Notes: a model not told the origin generated them from the sequence alone. 64,000 nt of DNA from Candidatus Moanabacter tarae (GCA_003226295.1 CP029803.1:2237001-2301000), one strand, 5' to 3'. Positions 9,835 to 28,519 are shown, numbered from the stretch's first letter. Numbers and translations are program-made.

Positions 9835-10299
9835 CTAAATTTTACCTACAATCAATCGAAAATTATCTTGGCTTATGACTTCAATCGTAACTCCTTTTTC
9901 TAGGAGTCCGCTCTGAGAGAAAGCTTCGTAATAAATCCCGTCTACCTCAACCATCCCAGTTGGGTTCAGCCGCGTTTGCGCACGACCTTGTTTACCAATT
10001 ATCTCCTGCCCTGCCTGTACCTTGTTGCTGGTTTCTTTCAGTGAAGACTTTAGAAAGAAGCGCTGCCCGAATGTGCTCTTGGAAAGTATCTTTAGCTCGA
10101 GAAGGAACATTAGGAGCGAAAGAACTACAGAGACCGTAAAAGTCACAACCGCTGCCATCGACCCGATTTCGGTATAGGCAAAACTACAGGCAGCAACGAG
10201 CACGAGTAACGCTGCAATTGCAAGAAAGCCTCCCGGGACAAAAATTTCGAAAAAAAACAGGAGTAGAGCAACTGCGATCAGTGTAACTACGATACTCAT
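9835..10299 (-). CDS. Short NfeD-family protein
   Basis: About 154 aa: three to four N-terminal membrane helices (residues 5-75) followed by the NfeD OB-fold domain (about 90-153, GKQGRAQTRLNPTGMVEVDG and NFRLIV). It lacks a protease domain and corresponds to the short NfeD form that pairs with flotillins. I place the start at the ATG at 10297-10299, which overlaps the TGA of the upstream protease gene by one base (TGATG). A TTG one codon earlier is also open. Tight coupling to the long NfeD gene and position upstream of floA support a membrane-quality-control role. Confidence 0.88.
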   Translation of the reverse strand: MSIVVTLIAVALLLFFFEIFVPGGFLAIAALLVLVAACSFAYTEIGSMAAVVTFTVSVVLSLLMFLLELKILSKSTFGQRFFLKSSLKETSNKVQAGQEIIGKQGRAQTRLNPTGMVEVDGIYYEAFSQSGLLEKGVTIEVISQDNFRLIVGKI

Positions 10300-12029: not shown

Positions 12030-12259
12030 TCTCTGACAAACATAGGATGTTGGGTATCGATCAAGAACGCAAGCCTCCGTCATCAACCAAACCCCTCAAC
12101 CTCTCGCAACTCCTATGTATTTAATATTCTCCCTAGCTGTACCCCTGTAACAGCTTCCTCCCCCTAATCAAACATTACTCTTGGCTTAGTTCGAAATGGT
12201 GAAAAGATGGTGAGCCAAACTTTTTCAAACGGTACTATTACCCAATCCCGTGGCCAGGA

Positions 12260-13345: not shown

Positions 13346-13423
13346 ACCTGACAAAAGGTCTTTTCCATCCAAAGATCATGCTTCAATTCAAGTAGGCTAT
13401 AAACTCTCTAACAGAAAAGCCCA

Positions 13424-14206
13424 ATGACAGCCCAGGGTAAACAGTATCATATCCAGTTGGATCGCACCCTTGTTGAAGGGGCCGAGTACGTCTTGCTTCC
13501 CGGTGATCCCAGTCGCGTGGCTACAACCGCGCTCTATATCGACCCAAACGCCCGTCAACTTAGTTCGCACCGGGAGTACACCACCTATCTTGGAAAACTC
13601 AAGAACCGCAACTTTCTTGTCTGCTCTACTGGTATCGGTGGACCTGGGACCGCCATCGCCCTTGAAGAACTGGCAACTATCGGCCTAAAGTATTTCGTAA
13701 GGATCGGAACCGCCGGAGCTATTCAACCTTATATTAATGTGCCCTCACTGGTCATTTCTCTTGGTGCGGTTCGGTTAGAAGGGACCTCCACACACTATGC
13801 TCCAATTGAGTATCCTGCAGTTGCCGATTTCGAGCTCACTAATGCGATTGTCCAAGCCGCGCGTGATTTACACCTTGAACACCACATCGGCATAACCGCC
13901 TCATCCGACTCTTTTTACCCAGGACAGGAGCGCTACGATTCTTTCTCTCAGTACGTTATTCGGCGCTTTAAAGGTTCCTTGCGGGAGTGGCAGCAGTTGA
14001 ACGTGCTCAACTACGAAATGGAAGCTGCTACACTTTTCACTGTAATTCGTACATTTGGTTTACAGGCCGCCTGTGTCTGTTCCTCCATTGTCAATCGAAG
14101 CTCCGAAGAACATGTCGACCAAGACATCCTGGAAATAGCCGAAAAGAATCTTGCTAAAGCCGCTAAGAAAGCACTCGTAATCCATATGGAAGAACAAAGT
14201 CCATGA
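13424..14206 (+). CDS. udp: Uridine phosphorylase
   Basis: Nucleoside phosphorylase of the NP-I family that splits uridine with phosphate to uracil and ribose-1-phosphate. The 260 aa include the N-terminal LLPGDPSRV, the phosphate-binding-loop neighbour CSTGIGGPGTAIALEEL, VRIGTAGAIQP, and the ribose-site segment NYEMEAATLFTV. SDSFYPGQERYD fits the uracil-binding region of Udp rather than a purine phosphorylase. Substrate preference is inferred from overall resemblance. It is convergent with the spermidine-synthase-like gene; a perfect 9-bp inverted repeat lies at the junction. Confidence 0.9.
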   Translation: MTAQGKQYHIQLDRTLVEGAEYVLLPGDPSRVATTALYIDPNARQLSSHREYTTYLGKLKNRNFLVCSTGIGGPGTAIALEELATIGLKYFVRIGTAGAIQPYINVPSLVISLGAVRLEGTSTHYAPIEYPAVADFELTNAIVQAARDLHLEHHIGITASSDSFYPGQERYDSFSQYVIRRFKGSLREWQQLNVLNYEMEAATLFTVIRTFGLQAACVCSSIVNRSSEEHVDQDILEIAEKNLAKAAKKALVIHMEEQSP

Positions 14207-14219
14207 CAATTTTTCTACA

Positions 14220-14253
14220 CCTGGGAAACTGAACTAATCTTCACTTTCCCAGG
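14220..14253. terminator. Hairpin at the udp / spermidine-synthase convergent junction
   Basis: CCTGGGAAA (14220-14228) and TTTCCCAGG (14245-14253) form a perfect 9-bp stem around a 16-nt loop exactly where the two genes converge; the right arm lies in the last codons of the minus-strand gene. The location suits a bidirectional stop or buffer. No proper T-tract follows on either strand, so it may act only as an mRNA 3'-end stabiliser. Confidence 0.4.
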
Positions 14254-15913
14254 CCCGGAGGTAATAGTCATAAACCCGAGGAGAGGAAATTGTGCTGACA
14301 TCTAGGTGATTAGAAATTAGTTGTCGTTTCCCAAAATGCCGCGAGGCTCGCATCAATTCTGTAGTCATATAACGGGTCTCTACAGAGAGCGACTCGATAC
14401 CCTGGAACCTGTTTCCCAACTGTTCCCGAGTCCAGCGATCAGCGTGGCCCCCGATCCACCATCCCCACTCTCCGAAACTGGGAACATTCTCACGATAGGG
14501 AAGGACAGCGAACCCGGCTCGTTCCATAGTGCGCCCAATACACAGGAATGCTTCCCGTGTGTGCACCGGAGAAGAGGACTGCTGGACGAAGAGTCCATCC
14601 TTGGCAAGTTTGCTCCTAAGCAGCTGATAAAACTGTAAACTGTAGAGCTTGGCCAATTCCGGCGAGTTGGGATCGGGGAAGTCAAGTATCACGACATCGA
14701 ACCGCCCGGGAATCTGTTCGATATATTTTGCAGCATCCGCATTGAGAATATGGATCTCCGCAACAGTCCCAATTCTACCCTCCCGTGGAAAATTCTGATT
14801 GAGAACATCAATTTTTTCTTTGCCGATATCGATAAGAGCCCGATTTTTAATCACTTGGGTTCGTGCATCACTGAGGCTGTGGTGGTTTAATGTCGTGAAA
14901 TAGGAATTATCTGATGCTAGATCAGTTATCATCGGATCGATATCCACCAGGAGGACAGATTCTACATCCCCGTATTTCAGAATCTCGCGGATAGCGAGTC
15001 CGTCTCCCCCGCCTAAGACAAGAACTTTACGACGGCGTTGAACAAGTTCCATTGCAGGATGTACCAACATTTCATGGTAAATATGCTCGTCTGTAGAATT
15101 GAACTGCAAACGCCCGTTAATATAGCATGAAATCTCGCCCTGGGGGCTCTCCGTCAGTACAATGTGCTGGTATTTTGAAGTCCCGGAGAAAACGATGCGA
15201 TCAATAAAGAGATGTTGCTCAGCGTAGGAAGTCCAATCCCCAGCCCGAGTAAAAGCAAACCCCAATGCGACTACGCTTACCAACCCAGCCACTAGAACTC
15301 CAGGGAAGAAAACCAACACCCGGCGGAAATAAAACAACCCGAGAAAAGCGACACCAGTGGTAAAAAACGAGAGGACAAATGCTGCCTCGACCATGGTAAA
15401 AAAGCGCGGAAGGATGAATATCCAAGCGAGCGCCCCGCAGAGAGACCCTATGTAATCCATCTTCAAAATCCGTCCTAGATTGATCCTGAGATCCTTACTG
15501 TAGTTCTCATTTATGCGGGTGATAAGTGGTATCTCGAATCCAATGAGCAACCCTATGGCACATATAAAGAAATACTGCACCAGGACGAAATGGCTCGCAA
15601 AGTGACTGTAAGCAAAAAGGAGAGCAATCGGACCAAAGCCACCCAAAAATCCAATGAGAAGCTCACTGAGGAGAAGTTTATCAATTAGCCCGCGATCCTT
15701 GACATATTTCTGCACATCTGCACCAACTCCCATAAAGAAGAGCATCACTCCGATTATAATAGCCCATTGCCTTGCGCTGTTGCCCAGAAGATCTGATGCG
15801 GTCTTACTGAAAGTATATTCGTATGCGAGCCCACACCCCCCCATGGCAAACATACTGATTCCGAGGATAAGACTTTCTTTCCCTCGCTTTGGCACTGGAA
15901 TTTCGGTTTCCAT
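14234..15913 (-). CDS. Spermidine synthase with N-terminal membrane domain (COG4262 type)
   Basis: 559 aa. The N-terminal half (about 15-220) has around seven membrane helices. The C-terminal half (about 235-540) is a spermidine-synthase fold: SAM-type nucleotide loop VLVLGGGDGLAIREIL near residue 299, acidic VDIDPMITDL, and the aminopropyltransferase segment VVILDFPDPNSPELAKLYS. Such enzymes transfer aminopropyl groups from decarboxylated AdoMet to an amine, here apparently at the membrane. The acceptor is unknown. It is divergent from the multi-pass gene at 16116 across 200 bp. A decarboxylated-AdoMet source, speH, lies 7 kb away in the same island. Confidence 0.9.
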   Translation of the reverse strand: METEIPVPKRGKESLILGISMFAMGGCGLAYEYTFSKTASDLLGNSARQWAIIIGVMLFFMGVGADVQKYVKDRGLIDKLLLSELLIGFLGGFGPIALLFAYSHFASHFVLVQYFFICAIGLLIGFEIPLITRINENYSKDLRINLGRILKMDYIGSLCGALAWIFILPRFFTMVEAAFVLSFFTTGVAFLGLFYFRRVLVFFPGVLVAGLVSVVALGFAFTRAGDWTSYAEQHLFIDRIVFSGTSKYQHIVLTESPQGEISCYINGRLQFNSTDEHIYHEMLVHPAMELVQRRRKVLVLGGGDGLAIREILKYGDVESVLLVDIDPMITDLASDNSYFTTLNHHSLSDARTQVIKNRALIDIGKEKIDVLNQNFPREGRIGTVAEIHILNADAAKYIEQIPGRFDVVILDFPDPNSPELAKLYSLQFYQLLRSKLAKDGLFVQQSSSPVHTREAFLCIGRTMERAGFAVLPYRENVPSFGEWGWWIGGHADRWTREQLGNRFQGIESLSVETRYMTTELMRASRHFGKRQLISNHLDVSTISSPRVYDYYLRAWESED

Positions 15914-16115
15914 AGGAATGGCTACGATTGAATTTTAGGTGTGGATCCGGAGCCTATCGAAACTCCGAGTTCTTCTTGGCCATAATTTGAATAACATTAT
16001 TTTATCAAACCACTAGCAAGGAATCTGTCAGCTGAAGACTAACATAGAGAAAGATCTTCAATTATAAGGTAACCAAGGCGCTTGCGCGCGTGAAATATCA
16101 GTTTATCGTAGCAAG

Positions 16116-17240
16116 ATGCAATCGGGTAAAAATTGGCTTTTTTCAAAAAAGTCCGACTTGCTCCTCCTATTCCTTCCGGTTTGGTTGACCTGGGGATTCT
16201 GTTTTGCTGCACCCCAGAGTTGGCTTTCAGCGAAAATTCCGATCTGGGTATTTGTAGTTTTCGTTCTTGGCATCGACGTTAGTCATGTTTGGAGCACGAT
16301 TTTTCGTACCTACTTAGACCGAGAAGAATTTCGTCGTCATAGGAGTCTTTTGCTCTATTCACCTCTCGTTTGCTTTACAATCTGTTTTTTAATTGCAGCA
16401 ATCTCCCAACTGTGGTTCTGGCGCATTCTTACTTATGCTGCTATTTTTCACTTTGTTCGCCAGCAATTTGGTTTTATGAGGCTTTACGCGATGCGTCGGC
16501 GTAAATCCTCTAATTTCAAGCTCTTGAGCGATTCATGGATGATCTATTTTTCCATGCTCTACCCAATCGTTTACTGGCACTTAATCTCGGATAGATATTT
16601 CTCTTGGTTTGTTGATGGTGGTTTCCTAACTTTCGAGCTGTTTTCAATAGACCTACAATCTGTGCAATGGGTTCTTGACCACCTCGGCAACAGCTTGTAC
16701 TGGTTACTATTCCTGTTTTGGTTCGTTGAGGAAGTCGTCATCCACAAGCGCACAGGAACCGCGATGCCATGGGGCAAGATCGCTTGGATGCTGACAACCG
16801 CCTTCAACTGGTATCTTGGAATCGTCTACTTCAATAGCGATCTTGCCTTTACCGTTACCAATGTTGTAGCCCATGGGATCCCCTATATCGTCCTGGTTTT
16901 ATTCTACGTGGAGCGAAAAAAAATAATTAGACACCCGAGCCGGTTCTCTAGCAATGATCAGTTCACCCGGAATTTCTGGATTCGATCGGCAGGGATGATT
17001 ACCTTAATTCTAGTCTTCGCAACCTTTGAGGAGTTCCTCTGGGATATGCTTCTCTACAGGGAATATTCCAAATTCTTTGAGACCATTTTAAAGTATCCAA
17101 TAACAATATTGGACAATCCAATCTCCCAAGCCCTTGCCCTGGCACTACTTTCTGTCCCCCAGGCCACTCACTATATCGTCGATGGATTTATCTGGAAACG
17201 TAGCCAAAAAAATCCCGATCTTAAGGCTATTCTCTCTTGA
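16116..17240 (+). CDS. His-rich multi-pass membrane protein of unknown function
   Basis: 374 aa with about eight to nine hydrophobic helices. Several histidines lie in or next to membrane segments: IDVSHVWSTIFRTYLD (about 54-69), FHFVRQQFGFMRLY (about 112-125), NVVAHGIPYIVLV (about 248-260), and PQATHYIVDGFIWK (about 348-361). The spaced His and Asp residues recall membrane metalloenzymes such as desaturases, hydroxylases or Brp/Blh carotenoid oxygenases, but I cannot assign a family. The oxidoreductase gene begins 18 bp after the stop, so the two are probably cotranscribed. It belongs to the left arm of the polyamine island. Confidence 0.75.
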   Translation: MQSGKNWLFSKKSDLLLLFLPVWLTWGFCFAAPQSWLSAKIPIWVFVVFVLGIDVSHVWSTIFRTYLDREEFRRHRSLLLYSPLVCFTICFLIAAISQLWFWRILTYAAIFHFVRQQFGFMRLYAMRRRKSSNFKLLSDSWMIYFSMLYPIVYWHLISDRYFSWFVDGGFLTFELFSIDLQSVQWVLDHLGNSLYWLLFLFWFVEEVVIHKRTGTAMPWGKIAWMLTTAFNWYLGIVYFNSDLAFTVTNVVAHGIPYIVLVLFYVERKKIIRHPSRFSSNDQFTRNFWIRSAGMITLILVFATFEEFLWDMLLYREYSKFFETILKYPITILDNPISQALALALLSVPQATHYIVDGFIWKRSQKNPDLKAILS

Positions 17241-17258
17241 ACCAATAAGGACGAAGAG

Positions 17259-18767
17259 ATGAATCGTCGCCGTTTCATTCGGTTATCCAGCGGTGCCTTT
17301 CTTACCGGGCTTACCGGCGGATGCGGCGGCCAGAGTTCGGAAGACAATCAATATGAAATCAAGGTAGTTTCGGACAGGTTGCAGGCACATCAACTTTTCC
17401 AGGGTAATGTTTTGCCACTGGATGATGTTATCAACACCGATGCCATCATTGTAGGAGGTGGAATCGCGGGACTCGCAGCCGCGGCTCACCTTGGAGCCAG
17501 GGATTACCATCTCTTCGAATTGTCAGATCGCTGGGGCGGTTCCTCTTCCAGCCAAAGACATGGTAGAGAGGAATTTTCCCAGGGGGCCCACTACGAACTT
17601 GCCTATCCTGATTATTATGGAGCTGAAGCTCTTGGTCTATTGGAACGGCTTAATGTCATTGTATTCGATGGCATACGGAGGATGTGGGATTTCCGTGAAA
17701 AGCAGTATCTTATCCCGCAGTCAATTAAGAGCATTTGCTTTGATCGAGGTCAGCCACGGGAAGGTGTCATGCCAGAAGGAGAGGAGCGGTTTCTCGACTT
17801 CCTAGGGCCCTATTTGGGCCGTATGCCTCTTCCTACACGTCTAATTGAAAAGGAAAACCGTAGGCTCAACGAAATGACTTTTCACGAATACATCCGAACG
17901 GAATCGGAACTCCCGGAACCCCTCAGGCGCGCAATTGATTATCAAATGCTTGATGACTATGGATCAACCGGAGACCAAATCTCTGCTCTAGCTGGGGTGC
18001 ACTACTACACTTGTCGGCCCTATTACACTCAGAAGGTGGAACTTTTTTCCCCTCCCCAAGGCAACGCTTACTTTGTCCAAAAATTGCTCGATGTACTGCC
18101 GCCGGAACAGATTCATCTCCATCACATGGTAAATAATATTACAGTAGAAAAACAGGGGGTTGAAGTTGAAGTCTCGGACTTTGCGGTTGGGAGGAGACGC
18201 CGGATTCGGTGCCAAAACGTGATCTTCGCCGGCCACAAGCTGGGCTTAAAATATATCCTTCCGAAACTCTATTCTTTCTTTAATCAGGTAAGCTATGCCC
18301 CATGGGTCGTTCTAAATTTCGTCCTCCGTGATCACCATCGGGACAGATCTTTCTGGCAGAACGAGTGGCTTGGGAAGGAAACAGATTTCCTCGGATTCGT
18401 AGATTCAGATTCGCAGTACAACCCAAACCCGAAGAAACGCGTTCTCACCGCCTATTTCTGTCTCCCAGAGGATCAACGTTGGCGACTGACGTCCTTAGAA
18501 GATCCGGTCGAATCTAAGCGATGGGCATCACGCGCCATGATACTGCTCAACAAAATGTTTAGTCACCCCATCGACAACCTCGTGGAGGCTATTTACATTA
18601 AAGCAATGGGGCACGCAATGCCAATTCCCAAACCAGGCTACCTGTTCCGTGATGCAAATGATGCCAGGCTTTACCCCGAAATAGTTTTCGCTGGTGTCGA
18701 CAACGGTCGATTGCCCCTATTCTTCGAGGCCTTAGATTCCGGCATAAGCGCCGCCAAGCTAATTTAG
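17259..18767 (+). CDS. Exported FAD-dependent amine-oxidase-like oxidoreductase
   Basis: 502 aa. The N-terminus NRRRFIRLSSGAFLTG is a twin-arginine-like leader ending in a lipobox-like TGGC with Cys near residue 22, so the protein is probably exported and may be lipidated. The FAD Rossmann motif AIIVGGGIAGLAAAAHL (about 63-79) is followed by an acidic strand end (FELSDRWGG). The C-terminal IVFAGVDNGRLPLFFEALDSG matches the second flavin-contact segment of flavin amine oxidases. It lies between the His-rich membrane protein and the DUF350 gene near a spermidine synthase, so an amine or polyamine substrate is plausible but unproven. SD-like AAGGACGAAGAG precedes the ATG. Confidence 0.8.
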   Translation: MNRRRFIRLSSGAFLTGLTGGCGGQSSEDNQYEIKVVSDRLQAHQLFQGNVLPLDDVINTDAIIVGGGIAGLAAAAHLGARDYHLFELSDRWGGSSSSQRHGREEFSQGAHYELAYPDYYGAEALGLLERLNVIVFDGIRRMWDFREKQYLIPQSIKSICFDRGQPREGVMPEGEERFLDFLGPYLGRMPLPTRLIEKENRRLNEMTFHEYIRTESELPEPLRRAIDYQMLDDYGSTGDQISALAGVHYYTCRPYYTQKVELFSPPQGNAYFVQKLLDVLPPEQIHLHHMVNNITVEKQGVEVEVSDFAVGRRRRIRCQNVIFAGHKLGLKYILPKLYSFFNQVSYAPWVVLNFVLRDHHRDRSFWQNEWLGKETDFLGFVDSDSQYNPNPKKRVLTAYFCLPEDQRWRLTSLEDPVESKRWASRAMILLNKMFSHPIDNLVEAIYIKAMGHAMPIPKPGYLFRDANDARLYPEIVFAGVDNGRLPLFFEALDSGISAAKLI

Positions 18768-18924
18768 CGATCAGTCGGACGACTAAAACAGACTTTAAAA
18801 CTCGAGAAGCTACCCGATGGAACAACAATGATTAACTGGACTTGCTGGTTATCTCTTCTAGGATCCCTGCGGATCTCGATGCTTTTCTCACAACATTAAC
18901 TCAATATCCGAACGCTTCACTATC

Positions 18925-19827
18925 ATGAATGAACTGATAACATCTTGGATTAATGTTGAGGATATCCGGTTGCTTTTGGACCCAACCGCTGTGATTTTCC
19001 TCGGCGTCGTTATAATCGTCCTATTTTTGGGCAAGCTTATCAATGACTGGTGTACGAGCTATGACCTGAACGAAGAGCTCACGAAGAAGGACAACAAGGC
19101 TCTCGCCATGTCCTTCATGGGCTATATATTCGCCATCGGTATTATCATCTGGGGCGTTCTTATCAGTCCAGTCGCAGTCGATAAAGAGGTTCTCCCGGGA
19201 AGCACATTGTGGTCTCAGCTCATGGCAACGGCTATTTGGGCCATAATTGGGATCTTGCTTCTCCAATTAGCAAGGGTCATCAATGACCGTCTCTTGCTCT
19301 ACAAGTTTAGGAATGTTAAAGAGATCATTGAAGACCAGAATGTCGGAACAGGAGTGGTCCAGGGCAGTGCATATATTGGTTCCGGCCTCGTTATTATGGC
19401 CGCCTTACACGGCGAAGGCAGCGGGTCACCGGTTGTCGAAGCAGTCTCAACTCTGGTCTACTTTGCAGCTGGACAATTAGCCTTCATCTTATTCGGACTT
19501 ATCTATTCTAAGGTAAGTCGCTATGATCTCCACGAAGAAATCGAAAAAGACAATGTAGCCGCCGGAGTCGGATTTGGAATGACAATGATCGCCGTTGGCG
19601 TCCTTATGTGTGGCTATATTCTTCAGAACGCATCCCTCACCGGCCTTCTAGTATGGTTCCTAATTTCCTGTTTCCTTCTCCTGGTTTGTCGTTACTTGAT
19701 CGACAAAATAATCCTCCCAGGGACCCTCCTTGACGAGGAAATTAGCAAGGATCGGAACTGGGGGGCAGCCTTAGTTGAGGGAATTTCCGCGATTTCTCTA
19801 GCCCTTATCCTGATTGCAATCTTCTAA
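18925..19827 (+). CDS. Multi-pass protein with two tandem DUF350 domains (YjfL-like)
   Basis: 300 aa, about eight membrane helices. Four internal repeats of an acidic turn followed by a Gly/Ala-rich helix are visible: LNEELTKKDNKALAMSF, VKEIIEDQNVGTGVVQG, LHEEIEKDNVAAGVGFG, LDEEISKDRNWGAALVE. This matches two DUF350 domains; E. coli YjfL has one. DUF350 genes recur beside PspA-like, DUF2170 and polyamine enzyme genes. No molecular function is established that I know of. It lies 157 bp after the oxidoreductase on the same strand and is followed by a 475-bp gap. Confidence 0.85.
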   Translation: MNELITSWINVEDIRLLLDPTAVIFLGVVIIVLFLGKLINDWCTSYDLNEELTKKDNKALAMSFMGYIFAIGIIIWGVLISPVAVDKEVLPGSTLWSQLMATAIWAIIGILLLQLARVINDRLLLYKFRNVKEIIEDQNVGTGVVQGSAYIGSGLVIMAALHGEGSGSPVVEAVSTLVYFAAGQLAFILFGLIYSKVSRYDLHEEIEKDNVAAGVGFGMTMIAVGVLMCGYILQNASLTGLLVWFLISCFLLLVCRYLIDKIILPGTLLDEEISKDRNWGAALVEGISAISLALILIAIF

Positions 19828-20302
19828 AATCCTCGGTTGGAAAATGATTCAAAGTCGAAATGAGCGTTCATTTTAGGCTTCCTCCTGATCGGCTTCGCCA
19901 TCTAAAATAATGAAGTCTTGCTTGGACTGACTCGTAATAGCTACGGCCGAAACAAACGTTGTCTATTTCAAGATCCGCGAAAAGCTATGCAGCAGCCAGC
20001 TCCTTGAAATTACCATGGGGTGGGAAGGCAAGTATTTTTAAGATTCCTTCAGGGGAAGCACCTAAGTGGGAGGCCGATTTCTCCCTTTAGCGTTATTTAT
20101 TCGATGGGAACAGTTTGCTTTCAGGATTACATCTTATCGAAAGATTCGAATGATAAGCCATCGCCCTTCCAGAGGACGGAATACTTGCGTATTCCACTGA
20201 ATGCATAGACGCAGTAGAATCTAAAACCTGTACAGATTTCATGTCATCGACGCATTAATCCGAGGGGATAGCTTTCCCAAGCCATTATTGAAATAGTACT
20301 AG
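19828..20302. other. 475-bp intergenic region with one clean hairpin
   Basis: I see no convincing coding frame here. Between the DUF350 and CPBP genes, GGAATAC and GTATTCC (20178-20195) form a perfect 7-bp stem with a TTGC loop. Just upstream CTTATC and GATAAG form a looser 6-bp pair. The region could hold a small RNA, a long leader of the CPBP gene or a decayed gene. Confidence 0.4.
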
Positions 20303-21055
20303 ATGGGAAACAGGAAGAAACAGAGAATCTGGTACGGGGTAGCACCAGCAATGCTAATGCCGCTAATAGCTTCTCTTTTCTACTTCGTTTGGCTCAGGGA
20401 GCCAACATTTGTTCGTTTCGCCTACGTTGGCATCAAGATCTTTTCTTTAGTCTGGCCCGCAATGGCAGTATTATGGATTTTGCGCGAGACACTTCCAAGA
20501 TGGCAATTGAAGGATTCGCATCACTGGAAATCTCTTCCAGCGGGAATGGGCATGGGCTTCCTAATCGCAATTTTATTGTTTGCTCTCATGCGGACGCCCG
20601 CAGGTGAGATGATTCGCGAAAACGCCGACAGAATTAGCGATAAGGCTATCAACCTTGGAATCACGAATTACTACTGGAGTTTCGCCATCTTTATCTCGGT
20701 CTTTCACTCCTTGACAGAAGAGTACTACTGGCGCTGGTTTGTCTATGGGCAACTTATTCGAGTCCTCCCCGCAGGATGGGCGCATATTCTTGCTGGCCTC
20801 TCCTTCTCTGCTCATCATATCGTTATAGCTACCCAGTACTTCCCCAATTCCTACGGGATAATGTTTGGACTCCTTGTAGGAGTCGGAGGGATGCTCTGGA
20901 GCCTTCTGTACGCGAAGCATAAAACTCTTTGTGGTATTTGGATAAGTCATATGATTGTTGACTTATCAATTATGGTTATTGGTTACGACCTAGTCTATTC
21001 TCGGGCAGTTCTTGCCCTAATTACTGGCGGGCAAAATTTTTTCGCCGCCGGATAA
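20303..21055 (+). CDS. CPBP-family intramembrane protease (CAAX/Rce1-like)
   Basis: 250 aa, about seven membrane helices. The family motifs are present in order: EEYYWRW (about 140-146, the EExxxR motif), then FSAHHIV (about 171-177), and a third His/Asp segment SHMIVDLS near 215. These residues form the intramembrane metal- or glutamate-based active site of Rce1/ABI proteins. Bacterial members are linked to bacteriocin immunity and membrane-protein processing. It ends the left arm of the island and converges with the tRNA gene 76 bp downstream. The substrate is unknown. Confidence 0.88.
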   Translation: MGNRKKQRIWYGVAPAMLMPLIASLFYFVWLREPTFVRFAYVGIKIFSLVWPAMAVLWILRETLPRWQLKDSHHWKSLPAGMGMGFLIAILLFALMRTPAGEMIRENADRISDKAINLGITNYYWSFAIFISVFHSLTEEYYWRWFVYGQLIRVLPAGWAHILAGLSFSAHHIVIATQYFPNSYGIMFGLLVGVGGMLWSLLYAKHKTLCGIWISHMIVDLSIMVIGYDLVYSRAVLALITGGQNFFAAG

Positions 21056-21130
21056 ACTATAGACTTAGGATAGTCTCTAGTACAAACCCCCTTGTAAACA
21101 TAGAGATTGTATTTACAGCGCAGCGAGAGT

Positions 21131-21203
21131 TGGGCCCTGAGGGATTCGAACCCCCGACCAAAGGATTATGAGTCCTCTGCTCTAACCACTGAGCTAAGGG
21201 CCC
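21131..21203 (-). tRNA. tRNA-Ile2 (CAT anticodon, lysidine-dependent type)
   Basis: 73 nt. The acceptor arms GGGCCCT and AGGGCCC pair fully, with discriminator A at 21131. The D-arm has AGCTCAGTGGTTAGAGC, the anticodon loop is CTCATAA, and the T-arm is GGGGGTTCGAATCCCTC. The body (TTAGCTCAGTGGTTAGAGCA start and CTCATAA loop) closely follows E. coli ileX-type tRNA-Ile2, whose C34 is converted to lysidine to read AUA, rather than tRNA-Met. The 3' CCA is not encoded (ACT follows). It lies in the middle of the accessory island. Confidence 0.93.
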
Positions 21204-21512
21204 AGGATAAGACTTCAGAATACGGAAAATTTGATACAGATATTTGGACCGGGTGGCAATCATCACTTTGTAGATTCTAAACGGTCTTCCCAGCAACTGA
21301 AATTGTTGCCGAATGAAAATAGATAGTTAACTCTTTCTGTTATTCGTCGATTCGCTCAAACAGCAAGCATGGCCATGAGGAGAAAGGTTTACGACACTAT
21401 TTCACGATCGTGCGAGAAACTGTCTCTCCAGCAATTCTGCTATCAAGCGTGGAGGCCCGCATCAAAAACCCAATAACTGAAATATCCGTTCTCGTGTTTA
21501 AAATAGGAGACC
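21204..21512. other. Intergenic region upstream of tRNA-Ile2
   Basis: Between the tRNA and the stop of the AAA+ ATPase gene. Apart from the tRNA promoter (21231-21259) I see only a 5-bp GCAAC/GTTGC inverted pair near 21280-21296. There is no coding frame and no T-tract terminator for the ATPase operon. Confidence 0.4.
21231..21259 (-). promoter_or_regulatory. Sigma70-type promoter for tRNA-Ile2
   Basis: On the minus strand TTGCCA (21254-21259), a 17-bp spacer and TATCAA (21231-21236) give well-spaced -35 and -10 boxes. Start of transcription would be around 21224, about 20 nt before the tRNA 5' end. Identified by eye. Confidence 0.55.
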
Positions 21513-22886
21513 TCATATTACCGGGAAATCCTTTGCTTCCAAGGAAACAAGATCTGTTTTCGTGAGGGCTATCTTAGCTTCGCTGAGTCGCATGGCCTGG
21601 GCACGGAGAATCTGCTCGAATAGGTTTCGACAAAAGCGGCCATTCCCAAATCCACGGCCTGATCGTTCGATTTCCTGCAGTAAAATTTCTTCGAGCCTTT
21701 TTTTCGCCATCCGATCCATACTATAATCATTCGCCTCACACATCTGCTCAAATATCCTGCCGAGCTCGTCAACTGAGAAATCATCGAATTCTATGTAGGT
21801 ATTGAATCGTGAACGAAAACCGGGGTTGGAGTTAATAAAGGCCTCCATCTCTTCTGTATAGCCTGCTACAATGACAATGAGGCGATCGCGGTAATCCTCC
21901 ATTCGTTTTACCAGACTGTTGATCGCTTCGAGGCCAAAATCATTTCCAGTTCCCTTGTAGAGACTGTAGGCCTCATCGATAAAGAGAATACCGTCAAGAG
22001 CCCGGTTCACCACCTCAGTTGTTTTCACATCAGTGTGCCCAATATATTGTCCCACCAACCCCGAGCGATCCGACTCTACTAGATGTCCTTTCTCAAGAAA
22101 CCCTAGGGCTCGGTAGATGCGGGCTACAAGGCGAGCAACCGTCGTTTTCCCGGTACCTGGATTTCCAGTAAATACCATATGGAGGGAAAGATTGGTTTGC
22201 GAAAGTTTCATCTCTTTACGCTTTTGCTGTATTGAAAGGTAACTGACCAATCGTTTGATTTCGTTCTTAACCCCGTTTAGCCCTACCAACGAATCCAATT
22301 CGGCCAAACACGTGTCCAGGTCGACAGGATCGTTTTCCTCCCAAATAGCCTCAGGCTCGATTGTCTCAACGGTGCGGTCCTTATCGTTAACGGTCGAGTC
22401 AGGAGTTCTCAATGTTCCCGAATCCAACCGGAAAAGTCTCTCCAGCTCACGATTGACCCGGCATGTCAATTCAGCATCGGCTGACAACAGCAGGTCAGCT
22501 AGATTCGCAATCAAAAATTGCTCATCCTGACTAAAGTTACCATCGATTAACGCCATTCCGCCCCCGAGGCTATAAAGAATCTCGGCCATACTGGAATACC
22601 CAATCCCAATTTTGAGATTCTCCAGACTATAAGTCGGCTGTTTTTCTATTTTAGCTTGGAGCAAATTTCGATACATCGGCGACCAATTCATTCGCCTAGC
22701 CACTGCTTCTGAAAGTCTTGACTCGGCTGAACTCACCTCACCATCGATATGAGCGACAAGGAATAGAATCATCCGGATCTCATAATCAATCTCGAATTCG
22801 GAAACGAGACCCTGCCTCTGCAATTCCCGCTTCGTAGCATCAATATCTCTAAGGCAGAAATGGACGATCTCCGAAATATCGACCAT
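21513..22886 (-). CDS. AAA+ ATPase, CbbX/SpoVK type, with N-terminal TerB-like domain
   Basis: 457 aa. Residues 1-150 are helical with two TerB-like signatures, FLVAHIDGEVSSAES and MALIDGNFSQDEQFLI (Asp-rich, metal-binding in tellurite-resistance TerB). Residues about 195-450 form a CbbX/SpoVK AAA+ module: Walker A GNPGTGKTTVARL near 240, Walker B GILFIDEAYSL, and an arginine-finger region NPGFRSRFNTY. CbbX relatives remodel protein assemblies. The gene begins 23 bp after speH and is probably the last gene of the right-arm operon. Its target may be a membrane-associated complex of the island (inference). Confidence 0.88.
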   Translation of the reverse strand: MVDISEIVHFCLRDIDATKRELQRQGLVSEFEIDYEIRMILFLVAHIDGEVSSAESRLSEAVARRMNWSPMYRNLLQAKIEKQPTYSLENLKIGIGYSSMAEILYSLGGGMALIDGNFSQDEQFLIANLADLLLSADAELTCRVNRELERLFRLDSGTLRTPDSTVNDKDRTVETIEPEAIWEENDPVDLDTCLAELDSLVGLNGVKNEIKRLVSYLSIQQKRKEMKLSQTNLSLHMVFTGNPGTGKTTVARLVARIYRALGFLEKGHLVESDRSGLVGQYIGHTDVKTTEVVNRALDGILFIDEAYSLYKGTGNDFGLEAINSLVKRMEDYRDRLIVIVAGYTEEMEAFINSNPGFRSRFNTYIEFDDFSVDELGRIFEQMCEANDYSMDRMAKKRLEEILLQEIERSGRGFGNGRFCRNLFEQILRAQAMRLSEAKIALTKTDLVSLEAKDFPVI

Positions 22887-22909
22887 CGATCTATTTTCCT
22901 ATTAGATTC

Positions 22910-23311
22910 CTAAATCGAAATCCCACGATCGATTTCCCGACTGTGGTATTCACTTGCCTCAAAAGTGCGAATTAAAGCCTGGCCGATATCCTCTCCAAGA
23001 TTTCCTTCCCCACAGGTGAAGACATCGACAGCAGCATAATTTAGTTCCGGCCAAGTGTGCACGGTCAGGTGGCTCTCTGATATCACCACAACGCCGCTCA
23101 ATCCCTGAGGACTATAACCGTGGAAAACCGAATTGACAACCGTAGCGCCCGCAGTTTCAGCAGCCGAGATCATAGACTTTTTTAGCACCTCGATATCAAC
23201 CAGGAACTTCTCGGCACATCCGTACAGTTCAAACAAATAATGGCGCCCCAGAACTCTGTAGGTGACAGATTGTTGTGAGTCCTCTTGCTTATGCTCGATC
23301 GCTCCCTTCAT
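22910..23311 (-). CDS. speH: S-adenosylmethionine decarboxylase proenzyme
   Basis: Pyruvoyl enzyme that makes decarboxylated AdoMet, the aminopropyl donor for spermidine synthase. The 133 aa match the short bacterial SpeH class. The self-cleavage site is Glu79-Ser80 in VVISESHLTVHTWPE. The catalytic His85 and Cys100 (VDVFTCG) keep the +5 and +20 spacing from the Ser seen in the Thermotoga enzyme (S63, H68, C83). It lies between pspA (99 bp upstream) and the AAA+ gene (23 bp downstream), so polyamine chemistry is built into this operon. Confidence 0.95.
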   Translation of the reverse strand: MKGAIEHKQEDSQQSVTYRVLGRHYLFELYGCAEKFLVDIEVLKKSMISAAETAGATVVNSVFHGYSPQGLSGVVVISESHLTVHTWPELNYAAVDVFTCGEGNLGEDIGQALIRTFEASEYHSREIDRGISI

Positions 23312-23410
23312 CAGAAATCAGCTAACTGCTTAATGGTCAAAATACCTTCGAGGATCGATTTACGGCTAGGCACCTGAAAATTGTAATCACGATGGAACCC
23401 AAGGATTTCC

Positions 23411-24109
23411 TTAGGCACTTGCCCCCCCGCCTAATTTTGCCTTCATAGCCGCGAGCTTTTCCTGAACATCGGATCCTCCAGACGTAGTACCGAGATCCTG
23501 AAATTCTTTTTCCAAACTATCAGCCTCAGAAAATGAATCAGACATTTCCTTGGCTGCTTCAGCCTCGTAGGTATGGCGCTCCGCCTTAGCTTGAAGTCGG
23601 GCCATTAGGTCATCTGCATCATCCTTTTTAGAGATCTTCGCCTTGGCCTCATAGATATTTTTTTTCACTGCAGCTGCTTTGCTCTGTGCCAATATAAAGT
23701 CCTTGTTCCGTTTGAACTCGGCTAGCTCGTCCTCCATTTTTGAGATATCTGTCTTTAGAGAGTCGACTGAGTCCCTTTGTGATTTCCAGTTCTCATCAAG
23801 GGTTTTTGCCTTCTGATCGTGCTCTGTCGCTCGTTGTAGGGCTTTGACTGCCAATTCCTCCTTGCCCGCCTTTAGGGCTGCTTCCGCTTTTTGCTCCCAG
23901 GAAAACCGAGCTGTTTTATCCTTTTCCAAAAGCGCCTTGGTCTTGCGTTCGGTAGCAATGCATTCCTGAATTGCCTTCTTGGCATCACGAATTTGATCGG
24001 CTTTGTCTCTGATCGCTTGCTCGAGCATGAGCTCAGGCTTTTCCAGCTCCTCCACAACTTTATGAACGGAGGCCTGGCCAATCTTGAAAATGCGAGAAAA
24101 AATACTCAT
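23411..24109 (-). CDS. PspA/IM30-family protein (YjfJ-like)
   Basis: 232 aa, almost entirely helical and coiled coil. The N-terminus FSRIFKIGQASVHKVVEELEKPELMLEQAIRDK is a typical amphipathic PspA/IM30 helix. The long hairpin includes KAAAVKKNIYEAKAKI, and the C-terminal part (about 195-230) is Gly-rich. PspA proteins bind stressed inner membrane through ESCRT-III-like polymers. The close coupling to a DUF2170 gene (27 bp) mirrors E. coli yjfI-yjfJ, so this is probably the YjfJ-type paralogue rather than the sigma54-regulated pspA. I see no -24/-12 promoter. Confidence 0.92.
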   Translation of the reverse strand: MSIFSRIFKIGQASVHKVVEELEKPELMLEQAIRDKADQIRDAKKAIQECIATERKTKALLEKDKTARFSWEQKAEAALKAGKEELAVKALQRATEHDQKAKTLDENWKSQRDSVDSLKTDISKMEDELAEFKRNKDFILAQSKAAAVKKNIYEAKAKISKKDDADDLMARLQAKAERHTYEAEAAKEMSDSFSEADSLEKEFQDLGTTSGGSDVQEKLAAMKAKLGGGASA

Positions 24110-24136
24110 GGAATCCCCTTCCCTCTTCTTAGTGAA

Positions 24137-24550
24137 TTAGTCCTTCATTTTTGCGGTGAGTAACTCTTCCGCCCTGTCCACCGCTAATTCCAGGGCATCG
24201 AAAACACTGAGGAGTTCATCGTCATTGAGATCCCCTCCCTCGCGACTCTCCACCAGGACCAAACGGGGATCGTTCGTGTTTGTATTGTTAATCCCAAAAC
24301 TCACAGGCTGGATTTCAGTGTTCAGATCAAGGATCTTGAAGTAGAACTCTGCATCCGCAAATGAGGCGACATTCCCAAGATCGACTTCGAAGTAGAGGTT
24401 GCTTTCGTTGATACTGACATAAACCGGCAATTCATCCTCGCGTGCAACACGGTAAACCCCATTACCCAATTCCCCGACCTCGAAATTATGGAGACTTAGG
24501 AATCTATCGAAGTCTTCCTCTTTTCTTAACTTAATTTTTACATTTACCAT
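24137..24550 (-). CDS. DUF2170 protein (YjfI-like)
   Basis: About 137 aa. The ATG at 24548-24550 is preferred over a GTG two codons upstream because AAGGAG lies 5 nt before it. Short alternating strands and a C-terminal helix fit the CesT/YbjN-like chaperone fold attributed to DUF2170: GVYRVAREDELPVYVSI, YFEVDLGNVASF, DPRLVLVESREGGDLNDDELLSVFDALELAV. In E. coli, yjfI directly precedes the PspA homologue, as here (27 bp). It may act as a regulator or chaperone of the PspA-like protein; the function is unproven. Confidence 0.85.
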   Translation of the reverse strand: MVNVKIKLRKEEDFDRFLSLHNFEVGELGNGVYRVAREDELPVYVSINESNLYFEVDLGNVASFADAEFYFKILDLNTEIQPVSFGINNTNTNDPRLVLVESREGGDLNDDELLSVFDALELAVDRAEELLTAKMKD

Positions 24551-24610
24551 TCTCACTCCTTGTCTTGCATATCTCTATTCGTTGACCGCTATCACATCCA
24601 ATTGAATCCC

Positions 24611-25708
24611 TTAACTAATTTTTTTGCTAACCAGTTCTTCTTCGAATGAGAGAAAATCTCCACGATTTTCCGCCAACATGATCAGACGGTCGTCTTCACC
24701 TACTGTAAAATGTCTGGGAGGATTGAGGACTGGTTGATCGTCTCTGTAAATACCAATCATTTGAAGGTTGGCTGGATACTTCAGCATAGCCATGTGGATT
24801 TCAGAAATCATAAATCCAGTCAAGCGAGTGTCAAATATGTAGAACTGACTTCCTTCGAAATTCGTCAAAACCTGTTCGAAAACCACATGCAACCCCGGAT
24901 GAAGATACTCTTGTACCATAAGGCAATCGGTTAACCCGTCAGTCGAAACTATACCATCAGTCCGTGCCCGTTTCATCATCTTTCGATTATGTCGACTGAC
25001 CAATTCCGTAACTACCTTAATTTCTCGTTTCCGCTCGGTTGAAATCATCTCCACTATGGCTCCAACTGCGAAGGTCTGGGCGTCCGAATCCGCCGATTCT
25101 GGATCCTGCGCTAAGACGATAACTCCATCGCACTCTGTCACATTGGCTTTCAAAAGGATGTCCTCCCTCGTCGGGTTTCCTTTCAGGAAAAGCAAATCCT
25201 GATCTTTGAATTCCTCTGGTAACTCATCGAGAACGTCCGTCACCAGAACAAACCCTTTGGAAGAGTATCGGACGTTAGCACGCAATTCCATAACTAAATG
25301 CAGAACTCGTTCTGTACTAGGACAGTTACAAATTATTACATGATCTGTCTCTTTAATCTTCATTAATCCCCTCCTTTTCCTGGAGACTCGTTCAAACATT
25401 ACTTCGGCTACAGTGCCAACGAGGTAACCAAGTAGTCCAATACCCACGATGAAACAAGAATAAGAAATCACATAGCGGCCGATAAACGTCTCAGGATAAA
25501 AATCCCCGTACCCCACTGTCGTCATTGTAACCATAGCCCACCAGATGGAATCGGCCAAGGTAAGCTCAGTCTGTACGCTGCGCTCTGTAAGGAAGAATCC
25601 GACACCGAAAACCAGATTTAAGAGCAAAGCGAGAAAAAGCCCTTTGCTAACTCGCAGCTGCACAGAACCCCGTTTCAGGATCCAAGCTATAATGCGTTGT
25701 ATAATCAT
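24611..25708 (-). CDS. Potassium channel with TrkA-N (RCK) domain
   Basis: 365 aa. Two membrane helices (about 20-40 and 80-105) flank a pore loop with selectivity filter TTVGYGD near residues 60-66, so this is a two-TM ion_trans_2 channel. A cytoplasmic TrkA-N-like Rossmann domain begins near 118 (DHVIICNCPS) and a second domain extends to the C-terminus. Such channels gate in response to nucleotides, Ca2+ or voltage. It precedes the DUF2170 gene by 54 bp. Polyamines block or modulate many K+ channels, so its place in a polyamine/PspA cluster is suggestive. Confidence 0.92.
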   Translation of the reverse strand: MIIQRIIAWILKRGSVQLRVSKGLFLALLLNLVFGVGFFLTERSVQTELTLADSIWWAMVTMTTVGYGDFYPETFIGRYVISYSCFIVGIGLLGYLVGTVAEVMFERVSRKRRGLMKIKETDHVIICNCPSTERVLHLVMELRANVRYSSKGFVLVTDVLDELPEEFKDQDLLFLKGNPTREDILLKANVTECDGVIVLAQDPESADSDAQTFAVGAIVEMISTERKREIKVVTELVSRHNRKMMKRARTDGIVSTDGLTDCLMVQEYLHPGLHVVFEQVLTNFEGSQFYIFDTRLTGFMISEIHMAMLKYPANLQMIGIYRDDQPVLNPPRHFTVGEDDRLIMLAENRGDFLSFEEELVSKKIS

Positions 25709-25994
25709 AGGATTTCCATGTGGCGCGAGGCTTAGGTTTTTAGCGTGATGGATTATGGTATCAGAGTTCCTGGAGATATGCTTGCCGCTTGAGATTCGTG
25801 CCCTTGGTCGGCATTTGATTTTTCGTTCCCCTCGAGGAGTTAGATGTTAAAAACTACTCATGCGTACTCTAAAAGAGTTGCTCGGAGAGCTGATCTCTAA
25901 ACAAACACTTCTCAAGCTTGACCTCTCCATCCGATTGCGACCAAAGGGAATTACCGTTACACTGAATACCTAAGCATCTTGCCACATGGAAATC

Positions 25995-26819
25995 CTAAAA
26001 GAGCCAGACTGCGAGAAGTAAAGGGGAAACATAAAAAGGATCAAAGTAGGGATAATAGTAATCAATGGGTTGATCATTTGTAACGACTCTCTCGACAACA
26101 TAGTCCTCTTCACCATCTCTTTTATCGGGATCTTCGTGATGTTCAATAGGCGGGACCATTTCCGCTTCTTGCTTATGAAGATCAATCATCAATTTAGCCC
26201 CCTCTGTAATAACTTGCTCAATCACCTGTTCCCCAGTGACCTCTCCCTCGTCATCTTCATATCCTAAATCTTTCCACTCCAAAGCCGAATTGCAAATATC
26301 CAGAATTTCGTCCCAAACCGACCCAAGGAGCAGATCAAACTGCCAGCCAGTTCCATCCCTGCCAAAACGTTTTTCCGCTATAAAACTCATGAAAACAATC
26401 TCAACCGGAGACAATTTCTTATATTCAGAAACCGCAATCCGGAGATCTTCCCAGCGCTCATCATCCAGAAAATCGTTGAAGGCGGCTGATGTTTCATAAT
26501 CGAAATAGGAGGTAAAGGCGAACTCCCCAGCCTCTAAATCAACCGCACAGAAGACATCAAAAACAGTTAGGTATTCGCTGTACCGAGCAAGGAAATTTTT
26601 CAAAATCTCTCGGCCATTCTCTGTTGGAACATATTTCTCGTTATCTCGAATTTCGACGTATCCCTTGATCAGAAGCCATTCCAGGATTGTCTCAAGAAAA
26701 GCATCACCGTCGCCCAAGAGAAGCGGAAAGGTCGCCGGGCTATTCACCATGTATTCAAGAAGATAGATTCCAGCATACTCTCTCTTTCTTGCTTCCGAGA
26801 TCGTGTAGGGACGGTTCAC
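25995..26819 (-). CDS. Winged-helix-like protein with hydrophobic C-terminus, unknown
   Basis: 274 aa, GTG start. The N-terminal 80 residues look like a winged helix (FLETILEWLLIKGYVEIRDNEKYVPTENGREILKNFL), with the wing-like beta turn DNEKYVPT. The middle is acidic and helical (about 85-225), then a charged linker with HHEDPDKRDGEEDY, and an aromatic/Tyr-rich end finishing in the short hydrophobic SPLLLAVWLF. I recognise no family. It lies upstream of the K+-channel gene in the right arm of the island, with a 286-bp gap after it. DNA binding is possible but not shown. Confidence 0.7.
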   Translation of the reverse strand: MNRPYTISEARKREYAGIYLLEYMVNSPATFPLLLGDGDAFLETILEWLLIKGYVEIRDNEKYVPTENGREILKNFLARYSEYLTVFDVFCAVDLEAGEFAFTSYFDYETSAAFNDFLDDERWEDLRIAVSEYKKLSPVEIVFMSFIAEKRFGRDGTGWQFDLLLGSVWDEILDICNSALEWKDLGYEDDEGEVTGEQVIEQVITEGAKLMIDLHKQEAEMVPPIEHHEDPDKRDGEEDYVVERVVTNDQPIDYYYPYFDPFYVSPLLLAVWLF

Positions 26820-26932
26820 TGTTTTCCTATGAGTCGGTCCGTCTAGTTTTAATCGGCATTCCTAATATTAACCCGGGATCCCGTACCGAAGCTATATATC
26901 AAATGGCAAGTGGCGCCGGTTCCCAAAAAAAT

Positions 26933-27781
26933 TCACTTCCCTCTAAACCCGTAGGAACTTCGCATCATATTACTGCCACGAGCTGACGGGCGGGAAGGCC
27001 GGTTTCTCCCAAAACCGCCTGCGCGAACTGATTTTGAGGGATTACGCGATTGAAAACTCTTTTGCGAAGCCGTCGGATTGTTGAGGGGCGCCCGTATATT
27101 CGATGCCGTCTTTCCTGCGTTGGGAGAACGCGGGCGCGAGCCTAAGCTGCTGGTATTAGTCCGTGTCATCCCTGCCGAACGCCTCGCCGAAGCAGTTCGG
27201 TTACGATAGGCTGTCCTGGAGACGGTTCCGTAGGACCGGTAATAAGGCGGATAGGCACCATAATGCCAGGGCGAGAAGTAAAACGGATGCGGTCGAAAGA
27301 TGTAACCAAGGAGGAGATAATCGGCCAAACCAAACCTATGGCGATAGTAGTGATTATGTCCGTAGATCTGGCTGTTCCCGTGAATTTGCACATTTGCATC
27401 ACTACCAGATTTTTCGATCTCAATGGTAGCGATTTCCTGTTCCTCTCCAGGAGACGTCTCAACGGTAAAGGAGAATCCTCTACTATCACCACTCCCGTAC
27501 TCATCCACCTGAATATAGTCGACCTTTCCATTCTCATCGAGATCGAGATTGTTTATCCCCTCCCCAGAATTGTTTAGCAGCTGTTCTAACTGCTCTGCAT
27601 CTTTGGCTCTTTTAAGTAGATCGCCAACCGCCTGTAGATCCAATCCGTCAGCCGCTTTGACCACCGTCTGAACATCGACATTATATCGTTCCTCTCGCTT
27701 GGAACACCCGCCCGAAAAAATAGCGCCTGCCACCATTATCAAGAAGCACCAAGCAAGAAACTTAAAGAATGATTCGTCCAC
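26933..27781 (-). CDS. Lipoprotein with Tyr/Arg/Ser-rich tail
   Basis: 282 aa, GTG start. A hydrophobic leader ends in FSGGC with the putative lipidated Cys26. Residues 30-110 contain an EF-hand-like loop, DLDENGKVDYIQ (80-91; position 12 is Gln instead of Glu). Then comes a segment rich in His and Tyr (GHNHYYRHRF), a short hydrophobic stretch near 155-170, and a 130-residue tail rich in Arg, Ser, Asn, Pro and Gly. It is reminiscent in style and position of the lipoprotein YjfM in the enterobacterial yjf locus; homology is not claimed. Probably periplasmic or surface-facing. Confidence 0.75.
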   Translation of the reverse strand: MDESFFKFLAWCFLIMVAGAIFSGGCSKREERYNVDVQTVVKAADGLDLQAVGDLLKRAKDAEQLEQLLNNSGEGINNLDLDENGKVDYIQVDEYGSGDSRGFSFTVETSPGEEQEIATIEIEKSGSDANVQIHGNSQIYGHNHYYRHRFGLADYLLLGYIFRPHPFYFSPWHYGAYPPYYRSYGTVSRTAYRNRTASARRSAGMTRTNTSSLGSRPRSPNAGKTASNIRAPLNNPTASQKSFQSRNPSKSVRAGGFGRNRPSRPSARGSNMMRSSYGFRGK

Positions 27782-27967
27782 CTATCTGAGTCGTGGTTTC
27801 CAGGATTCTAACAAAATTCGTCGTGTGCTAACTCTACCAACGAAATTACCCATTGAAAAACTTCCATCAAGCGTTGCACCAGCGTTCTGATTCTGCAACC
27901 GAAAAGTCGAGAGCGTGACCAAGTCCAATCACCTATTATCACTTTAAATTTCAACCCATCAAAAGGG

Positions 27968-28519
27968 CTACTTCCTTCCTTTGATTTTCTTCATCCCGAA
28001 CATGAAAACAGCAAAGATGATAATAAAAAGGAAAAAAAGGGTCATGAGGGAAGCAAAAAACCCGACAAGAAAATGGAGCTTGGCAACGAATAGAGTGAGA
28101 GCGAAGGAGAAACCAGCCAATACCATAAGACCTGACAGGCGATCAAAACCCGGAATGTCATCAAATCGGGACACTCGGGAGATTGCGTAAAGAGTAGCTA
28201 TCATACAAAGAATAGGCCCTCCATAGAGGATGAGATCGATCTCTTCGAGGATGTTGACCCGCACAATGAAGATAAGATAACCCAGAGCCACTGCAGTACA
28301 AATACCTGGCAGTACCGCGAGGTAGACCGGAAAGGCCAGGAAACAGTTGGCAACGCGCGGAGAGATTCTATGGAGGATGGATCCTACACCCCACGCAAAG
28401 AAAGGCAGTGCCAGCATATACCAGTAGAGTTCCGTCCTATAAGCATGCAAACGACCAAAAAGGTTATAAAAGGACATTTCTTCCATTAGGAATCTTTCGG
28501 TTCCACCCTTCCGCAACAT
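27968..28519 (-). CDS. Small multi-pass membrane protein, unknown
   Basis: 183 aa with about five membrane helices (near 32-52, 60-85, 95-115, 128-148, 152-176) and a basic C-terminus KKIKGRK facing the cytoplasm by the positive-inside rule. ATG at 28519; internal Met at residues 12 and 15 are alternative starts. I recognise no family. It is the outermost gene of the right arm, 186 bp upstream of the lipoprotein gene and next to the atp operon end. Confidence 0.7.
   Translation of the reverse strand: MLRKGGTERFLMEEMSFYNLFGRLHAYRTELYWYMLALPFFAWGVGSILHRISPRVANCFLAFPVYLAVLPGICTAVALGYLIFIVRVNILEEIDLILYGGPILCMIATLYAISRVSRFDDIPGFDRLSGLMVLAGFSFALTLFVAKLHFLVGFFASLMTLFFLFIIIFAVFMFGMKKIKGRK

Follow-up and report, generated by a model that had tools for sequence, protein, structure and literature searches.

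Operons that combine PspA with membrane proteins and enzymes of polyamine chemistry are an already known kind of system (Ravi 2024; Li 2019). In group 2 of Ravi et al. 2024 (PMC11237479), a CesT/Tir-PspA operon is accompanied by SpeE-7TM, YjfL/DUF350, the lipoprotein Ctha_1186 and DUF4178, and the partner protein of group 3 has a glycine-rich tail, with a K+ channel present in some members. YgiC and YjfC are reported to be peptide-spermidine ligases (Pederick 2023). Here, we describe a 14-kb stretch of Candidatus Moanabacter tarae (positions 14234-28519 of the window, i.e., the whole 64,000 nucleotides analyzed, GCA_003226295.1 CP029803.1:2237001-2301000), which contains, in rearranged form, a conserved envelope operon of nine genes encoding an S-adenosylmethionine (AdoMet) decarboxylase, SpeD, and a membrane-fused spermidine synthase homologue, SpeE-7TM. 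We propose, with slightly better than even confidence, that SpeE-7TM adds an aminopropyl group to the last lysine of protein 26933, which this operon encodes and which is exported.

The locus shares with group 2 PspA, a CesT-like protein, SpeE-7TM, an eight-transmembrane (8TM) DUF350 protein and an exported anchored protein, and differs from it in having SpeD, a TerB-AAA+ ATPase, a K+ channel and the winged helix-turn-helix (wHTH) protein 25995. Its DUF350 component is a double DUF350 protein, encoded outside the operon in the window but inside it elsewhere, whereas DUF4178 had no Pfam match among the window proteins scanned and was found in another locus of the collection, L007. A CesT-like protein with PspA, DUF350 and an exported partner are also common to the window and group 3 (E. 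coli yjfIJKLMC), which has the ligase YjfC with a Gly-Gly-ended partner where the window has SpeD/SpeE with a Lys-ended one. The proposed likeness to YgiC/YjfC lies in the outcome, an exported partner that bears a polyamine at its C-terminus; however, those ATP-grasp enzymes would form an amide bond to a Gly carboxylate, whereas an aminopropyl group would here be transferred to a Lys amine. Operons described by Li et al. reportedly contain an AdoMet decarboxylase (AdoMetDC), a fused spermidine synthase-like membrane protein and DUF350 together, the study leaving the substrate open; our locus shares these three components, and a C-terminal lysine acceptor is now proposed. The pattern of Lys ends and the proposed, moderately supported substrate are, as far as checked, new: no statement on these Lys/Gly C-termini was found in the open-access literature, a search outside which Li 2019 and Pederick 2023 lie.

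The nine-gene operon and its rearrangement

With the CesT-like protein as the starting point, a set of 39 loci was collected in genome contigs, and their gene order was read with family hidden Markov models. The recurring order was SpeE-7TM, 26933, DUF350, 25995, K+ channel (Kch), CesT-like protein, PspA, SpeD and TerB-AAA+ ATPase. It is complete in many Verrucomicrobiota of this set, the copies in Calditrichota being without the last gene (TerB-AAA+) and those in deltaproteobacteria/Thermodesulfobacteriota without the last two (SpeD and TerB-AAA+). The minus arm of the window contains seven genes in exactly this order, minus SpeE and DUF350, which elsewhere precede 26933 and lie between 26933 and 25995, respectively, and which here sit 7-12 kb off. 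Across loci, TerB-AAA+ keeps the last position and the K+ channel its own place, and the CesT-like gene adjoins pspA in the window and in nearly all loci.

Pairwise distance matrices of all nine families, PspA and SpeE included, are correlated (r 0.81-0.96, permutation p 0.001 each), a measure of co-inheritance without species-tree control. Chance adjacency can be dismissed because the seven minus-arm genes, SpeE and DUF350 share a fixed order in other genomes, and the evidence supports one functional unit formed by the nine core genes. The first-pass annotation, which had joined PspA, membrane proteins and aminopropyl chemistry in one unit, is borne out for these nine, which travel together and not as two separate arms. 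The system is patchy: five of the 52 relatives have the CesT-like gene, as do 5 of 388 genomes across the phylum, and the named relatives at matching places are metagenome-assembled genomes (MAGs) of Opitutales/Opitutae.

Repeated co-occurrence of the unassigned genes had been named as support for the unit. Protein 25995 does co-occur, its homologues occurring in three of the 388 phylum genomes, every one a cluster carrier, but the membrane proteins mem16116 and mem27968 do not. CPBP and mem27968 have no homologues in other loci of the set and mem16116 has none in the 388 genomes; with zero recurrence in other loci, all three were rejected as parts of the system, including CPBP in the quality-control role once suggested for it.

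Several further observations concern gene order. The tRNA-Met between the two arms may mark where the rearrangement had a breakpoint or an insertion site. The closest relative (L027:1081-6000) has four unrelated open reading frames (ORFs) between SpeE and the rest, perhaps an intermediate of scrambling. In Thermodesulfobacteriota and deltaproteobacteria (L038, L039, L045 etc.), a MoxR AAA+ gene and then a DUF58 gene follow PspA and replace SpeD and TerB-AAA+ (scanned in L038). Three Calditrichota loci (L019, L021 and L023) have a gene of 255-267 aa between the CesT-like gene and PspA, the only copy scanned (L023) being an RluA-type pseudouridine synthase.

Terminal lysines and the SpeD/SpeE-7TM pair

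According to the alignment and a predicted model, 26933 consists of an N-terminal anchor, a beta domain, an EF-hand-like loop (NNLDLDENGKVDY) and a disordered cationic tail. Tails of this family are of low complexity and rich in S, R and G; that of the window protein ends in ...SSYGFRGK, and its last two residues, G281 and K282, do not vary in alignment A6, unlike the tail around them. The earlier designation as a lipoprotein holds in part: FSGGC in the window protein resembles a lipobox, yet many homologues have no Cys at this site, which is why we prefer "membrane-anchored".

All 20 members of the 26933 family beside SpeE-7TM, that of the window included, end in GK. More generally, each of the 36 SpeE-7TM+DUF350 loci read contains a Lys-ended exported operon protein, in most cases with Gly before the Lys; 20 of these proteins belong to the 26933 family and 16 do not. 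The latter comprise partners of 98 aa (L007, ...PSRGK), 85 aa (L041, ...GAGK) and 78 aa (Ensifer L110, ...ESGK), a 510-aa lipoprotein (Alteromonas L109, ...SSGK), and partners from Gemmatirosa (L117, ...RHGK), Tritonibacter (L115, ...NRVK), Novosphingobium (L118-L120, ...PSHK/PTHK), Burkholderia (L111, L116 and L147, ...GSHK) and Verrucomicrobiota (L122, ...VRHK; L124, ...FSHK; L125, ...LLHK; L126, ...HGGK). The small ORFs of L124-L126 were missed by the first filter and seen when the gaps beside DUF350 were read. Among 750 other ORFs, 7.2% end in K, 0.4% in [GH]K and 1.6% in GG, the rates for ORFs with an N-terminal transmembrane (TM) segment being 7.4% for K and 1.2% for [GH]K. In YjfC/YgiC ligase operons, the partner ends in Gly in 9/9 cases (GG in eight), two of these proteins having no DUF1190 annotation. 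The terminal residue of the partner follows the enzyme: Lys with SpeE-7TM, Gly with YjfC/YgiC. A Gly end suits an ATP-grasp ligase as carboxylate donor, and a Lys end an aminopropyltransferase as amine acceptor. The two enzymes look like alternatives in such operons, to which the absence of an ATP-grasp ligase from the window proteins scanned also points. In the L052 operon, SpeE, DUF350 and SpeD are cleanly missing, although they could sit elsewhere in that MAG; its 26933 homologue ends in RRR, and no downstream frame gives back a GK end.

Both enzymes appear intact. SpeE-7TM (559 aa; 7TM is the family name) has an N-terminal membrane domain and a SpeE domain from about residue 237, and scores above the PRK03612 (NCBIfam) cut-off of 472 bits. 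Residues Q249, Y279, H280, D304, D411 and D414, which are invariant in alignment A4, coincide with known catalytic or decarboxylated AdoMet (dcAdoMet)-site positions of spermidine synthases. One full-length match was found in viral contigs (IMG/VR), L148, whose contig ends directly after SpeE. SpeD retains the motif SESH...HTWPE...FTCG and fits class 1b, whose markers are S63, H68, C83 and the HTWPE region in T. maritima (PMC10407285), with equivalents of the processing Ser, the His and the Cys and with a presumed position for the diagnostic Pro. This AdoMetDC-like motif rules out an ornithine or arginine decarboxylase.

SpeD is the sole AdoMetDC of its own genome (a single contig of 2.63 Mb), and AdoMetDC occurs in 4 of the 52 genomes of the order, exactly four of the five CesT-like carriers, which agrees with the earlier view that the system supplies its own aminopropyl donor. 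As a phylum-wide marker of the system it was dropped, 77 of 388 genomes having one, mostly in a longer two-domain form of one family. In the own genome, no second SpeE was found, NspC (which the other carriers in the order do have) and PF01276 or PF01862 decarboxylases had no match above cut-off, and the only PF02784 member was LysA-like as assigned by inspection. None of the known putrescine-forming decarboxylases sought was found, which speaks against spermidine synthesis of the ordinary kind; the SpeD/SpeE pair offers no obvious route to it here, although another putrescine source or import may exist. Making or modifying a polyamine, as initially suggested, therefore gives way as the lead idea to a protein acceptor, to which the pattern of C-terminal lysines points.

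Gene content and neighboring genes

All 13 ORFs of the first-pass annotation are present in the window at the same coordinates (13/13; Table 1). Pfam agrees with the names given to SpeE, the AdoMet decarboxylase (AdoMet_dc), PspA (PspA_IM30, spanning the whole protein at residues 2-225), the double DUF350 protein, the FAD amine oxidase, CPBP (CPBP/Rce1) and the ion channel with RCK/TrkA-N, and also with the TerB-AAA+ ATPase, identified as AAA+ with AAA_lid_6 and a weak TerB match. No Pfam family scored above cut-off for 25995, 16116, 27968 or 26933.

Table 1. Features of the stretch and its surroundings
Feature	Position	Strand	Evidence or remark
NfeD1b-type membrane protease with NfeD C-terminal domain	10299-12086	-	~2 kb from SpeE
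SpeE-7TM	14234..15913	-	PF01564 7e-37; PRK03612 562 bits; outside operon in window
FAD amine-oxidase-like protein, accessory	17259..18767	+	PF01593 9e-12
Double DUF350 membrane protein	18925..19827	+	PF03994 1e-59, two stretches; outside operon in window
tRNA-Met, between the two arms	21129-21204	-	RNA gene
TerB-like domain + CbbX/SpoVK-type AAA+ ATPase	21513..22886	-	PF00004, PF17866, weak PF05099
SpeD, class 1b AdoMet decarboxylase	22910..23311	-	TIGR03330 130 bits, above cut-off
PspA/IM30 (YjfJ-like)	23411..24109	-	PF04012 1.5e-38
CesT-like partner of PspA	24137..24556	-	CesT 1.9e-4
Two-TM K+ channel with RCK/TrkA-N	24611..25708	-	PF07885, PF22614, PF02254
Protein 25995, N-terminal winged helix + C-terminal domain	25995..26819	-	predicted model
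Protein 26933, membrane-anchored, EF-hand-like loop, cationic tail ending Gly-Lys	26933..27781	-	alignment A6, model

Markers of the yjfIJKLMC type (group 3) were not found: DUF2170 (YjfI) and DUF2491 (YjfK) had no Pfam match in window proteins and no usable similarity in profile comparison, and an ATP-grasp (YjfC-like) ligase had none among the scanned proteins of 10299-28519, its absence having been correctly noted before. The CesT-like protein 24137, previously called DUF2170, matched only CesT families, at or below the Pfam cut-off, and its DUF2170 identity was rejected, with no usable profile match to E. coli YjfI; a relation between the two may exist at the fold level because both the CesT-like family and YjfI are placed in the CesT/Tir superfamily (Ravi et al. 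2024, PMC11237479). The predicted model of 25995 (pLDDT, predicted local distance difference test, 82.8) gave weak matches in PDB, mostly to wHTH proteins, with no clear match for the C-terminal domain, and fold searches with 25995 and 26933 returned no PDB match below 0.001. Assignments of 25995 as a distant YjfK (by profile comparison) and of 26933 as YjfM were rejected, no significant similarity being obtained; 1 of 17 members matches DUF1190 at 0.025.

The FAD protein carries a twin-arginine translocation (Tat)-lipoprotein signal (RRRFIRLSS...GGC) and is 23-27% identical to Tat-signal FAD proteins whose genes come immediately after SpeE-7TM, in three other Verrucomicrobiota loci as well as in Novosphingobium, Gemmatirosa and Burkholderia. 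It is an accessory gene recurring beside SpeE-7TM in another subtype. In addition, an SPFH protein, the usual partner of NfeD, is encoded in the SpeE-7TM loci of Burkholderia and Novosphingobium and may be compared with the NfeD1b protease near the window SpeE. A TelA-like toxic-anion-resistance protein in the Alteromonas SpeE-7TM operon without PspA (L109:10575-11681) echoes the TerB domain of the window.

Substrate, mechanism and significance

In the proposed mechanism, SpeD would produce dcAdoMet, and the cytosolic domain of SpeE-7TM would move the aminopropyl group onto the epsilon-amine of the last lysine of 26933, giving a C-terminal aminopropyl-lysine, i.e., a protein-bound polyamine. 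The modification would be an AdoMet-based counterpart of the reaction proposed for YjfC/YgiC, the joining of spermidine to Gly-ended partners. At the membrane surface, the cationic tail might work with PspA, the CesT-like partner, DUF350 and the K+ channel, possibly under envelope stress, with the TerB-AAA+ ATPase remodeling the PspA assembly, and the Tat-exported FAD protein may afterwards oxidize the modified tail outside. Deoxyhypusine synthesis places a polyamine piece on a lysine and microcin C7 has an aminopropyl group on a peptide conjugate, but these precedents involve other enzymes and not the C-terminal lysine of an exported protein.

Several points weigh against this proposal. The support consists of sequence patterns, from which the chemistry is inferred, and the search for Lys-ended ORFs followed sight of the pattern and was partly made by eye. 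About three independent families are represented (26933, the small one-TM proteins and the Alteromonas 510-aa lipoprotein), the small proteins may share ancestry, and many of the 36 loci are homologous. The Tritonibacter partner ends in VK, and those of Novosphingobium, Burkholderia and others in HK, not GK. In L121 (G013), SpeE-7TM occurs without DUF350, SpeD or a nearby Lys-ended protein, a Haloarcula fusion likewise lacks such a protein nearby, L048 retains GK though SpeE is missing from its contig, and deltaproteobacterial loci are without linked SpeD. Furthermore, the tails should lie outside by the positive-inside rule; with dcAdoMet available inside, the lysine would have to be modified before or during export.

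Among the alternatives, it is possible but unlikely that a small free amine (imported putrescine, cadaverine, agmatine or spermidine) is the acceptor of SpeE-7TM, with the membrane domain exporting or placing the product. The SpeE domain does match spermidine/thermospermine synthases, the NCBIfam name is polyamine aminopropyltransferase, and its fused membrane partner domain could serve as a transporter; however, no putrescine-forming decarboxylase was recognized in the own genome, carriers with an NspC route show no evident need for such an activity, the fused family is credited with a polyamine-independent role (Li 2019, as cited in PMC11237479), and the Lys ends would have no explanation. 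It is improbable that the terminal Lys and Gly-Gly are mere features of cationic or glycine-rich tails, such as binding or degradation signals, with the enzymes acting elsewhere: although this would fit the low-complexity composition of the tails, terminal Lys goes with SpeE-7TM and terminal Gly with YjfC/YgiC across unrelated proteins, background rates of such ends are low, and the enzymes and Lys are lost together in L052. Aminopropylation of a membrane lipid (e.g., phosphatidylethanolamine), shifting surface charge for PspA, seems slightly less probable still; SpeE is fused to a membrane domain and linked to PspA, which binds lipids, but the co-conserved Lys-ended protein is not explained. 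That the stretch is a row of adjacent unrelated genes, as its two strands, the tRNA between the arms and the three non-recurring genes might suggest, is scarcely credible given the gene order kept elsewhere and the correlated distances, and is already refuted for the nine core genes.

Aminopropylation of the terminal lysine of 26933 by SpeE-7TM predicts a mass shift of +57.058 Da on that residue. The link of an AdoMet decarboxylase with a membrane-fused spermidine synthase homologue is widespread; the C-terminal pattern offers a concrete substrate for it, and it explains why a spermidine ligase or an aminopropyltransferase fills the same place beside DUF350 and PspA. The chances are about even that this represents a new protein modification, an aminopropylated C-terminal lysine made on an exported membrane-anchored protein by a membrane-fused spermidine synthase homologue. 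If true, the bacterial envelope would hold a new class of polyamine bound to protein, and the role of the "polyamine-independent" AdoMetDC/SpeE fusions would be explained. Envelope proteins linked to PspA would then receive a polyamine at the C-terminus by either of two parallel chemistries, this one or that of YjfC/YgiC on Gly-Gly ends.

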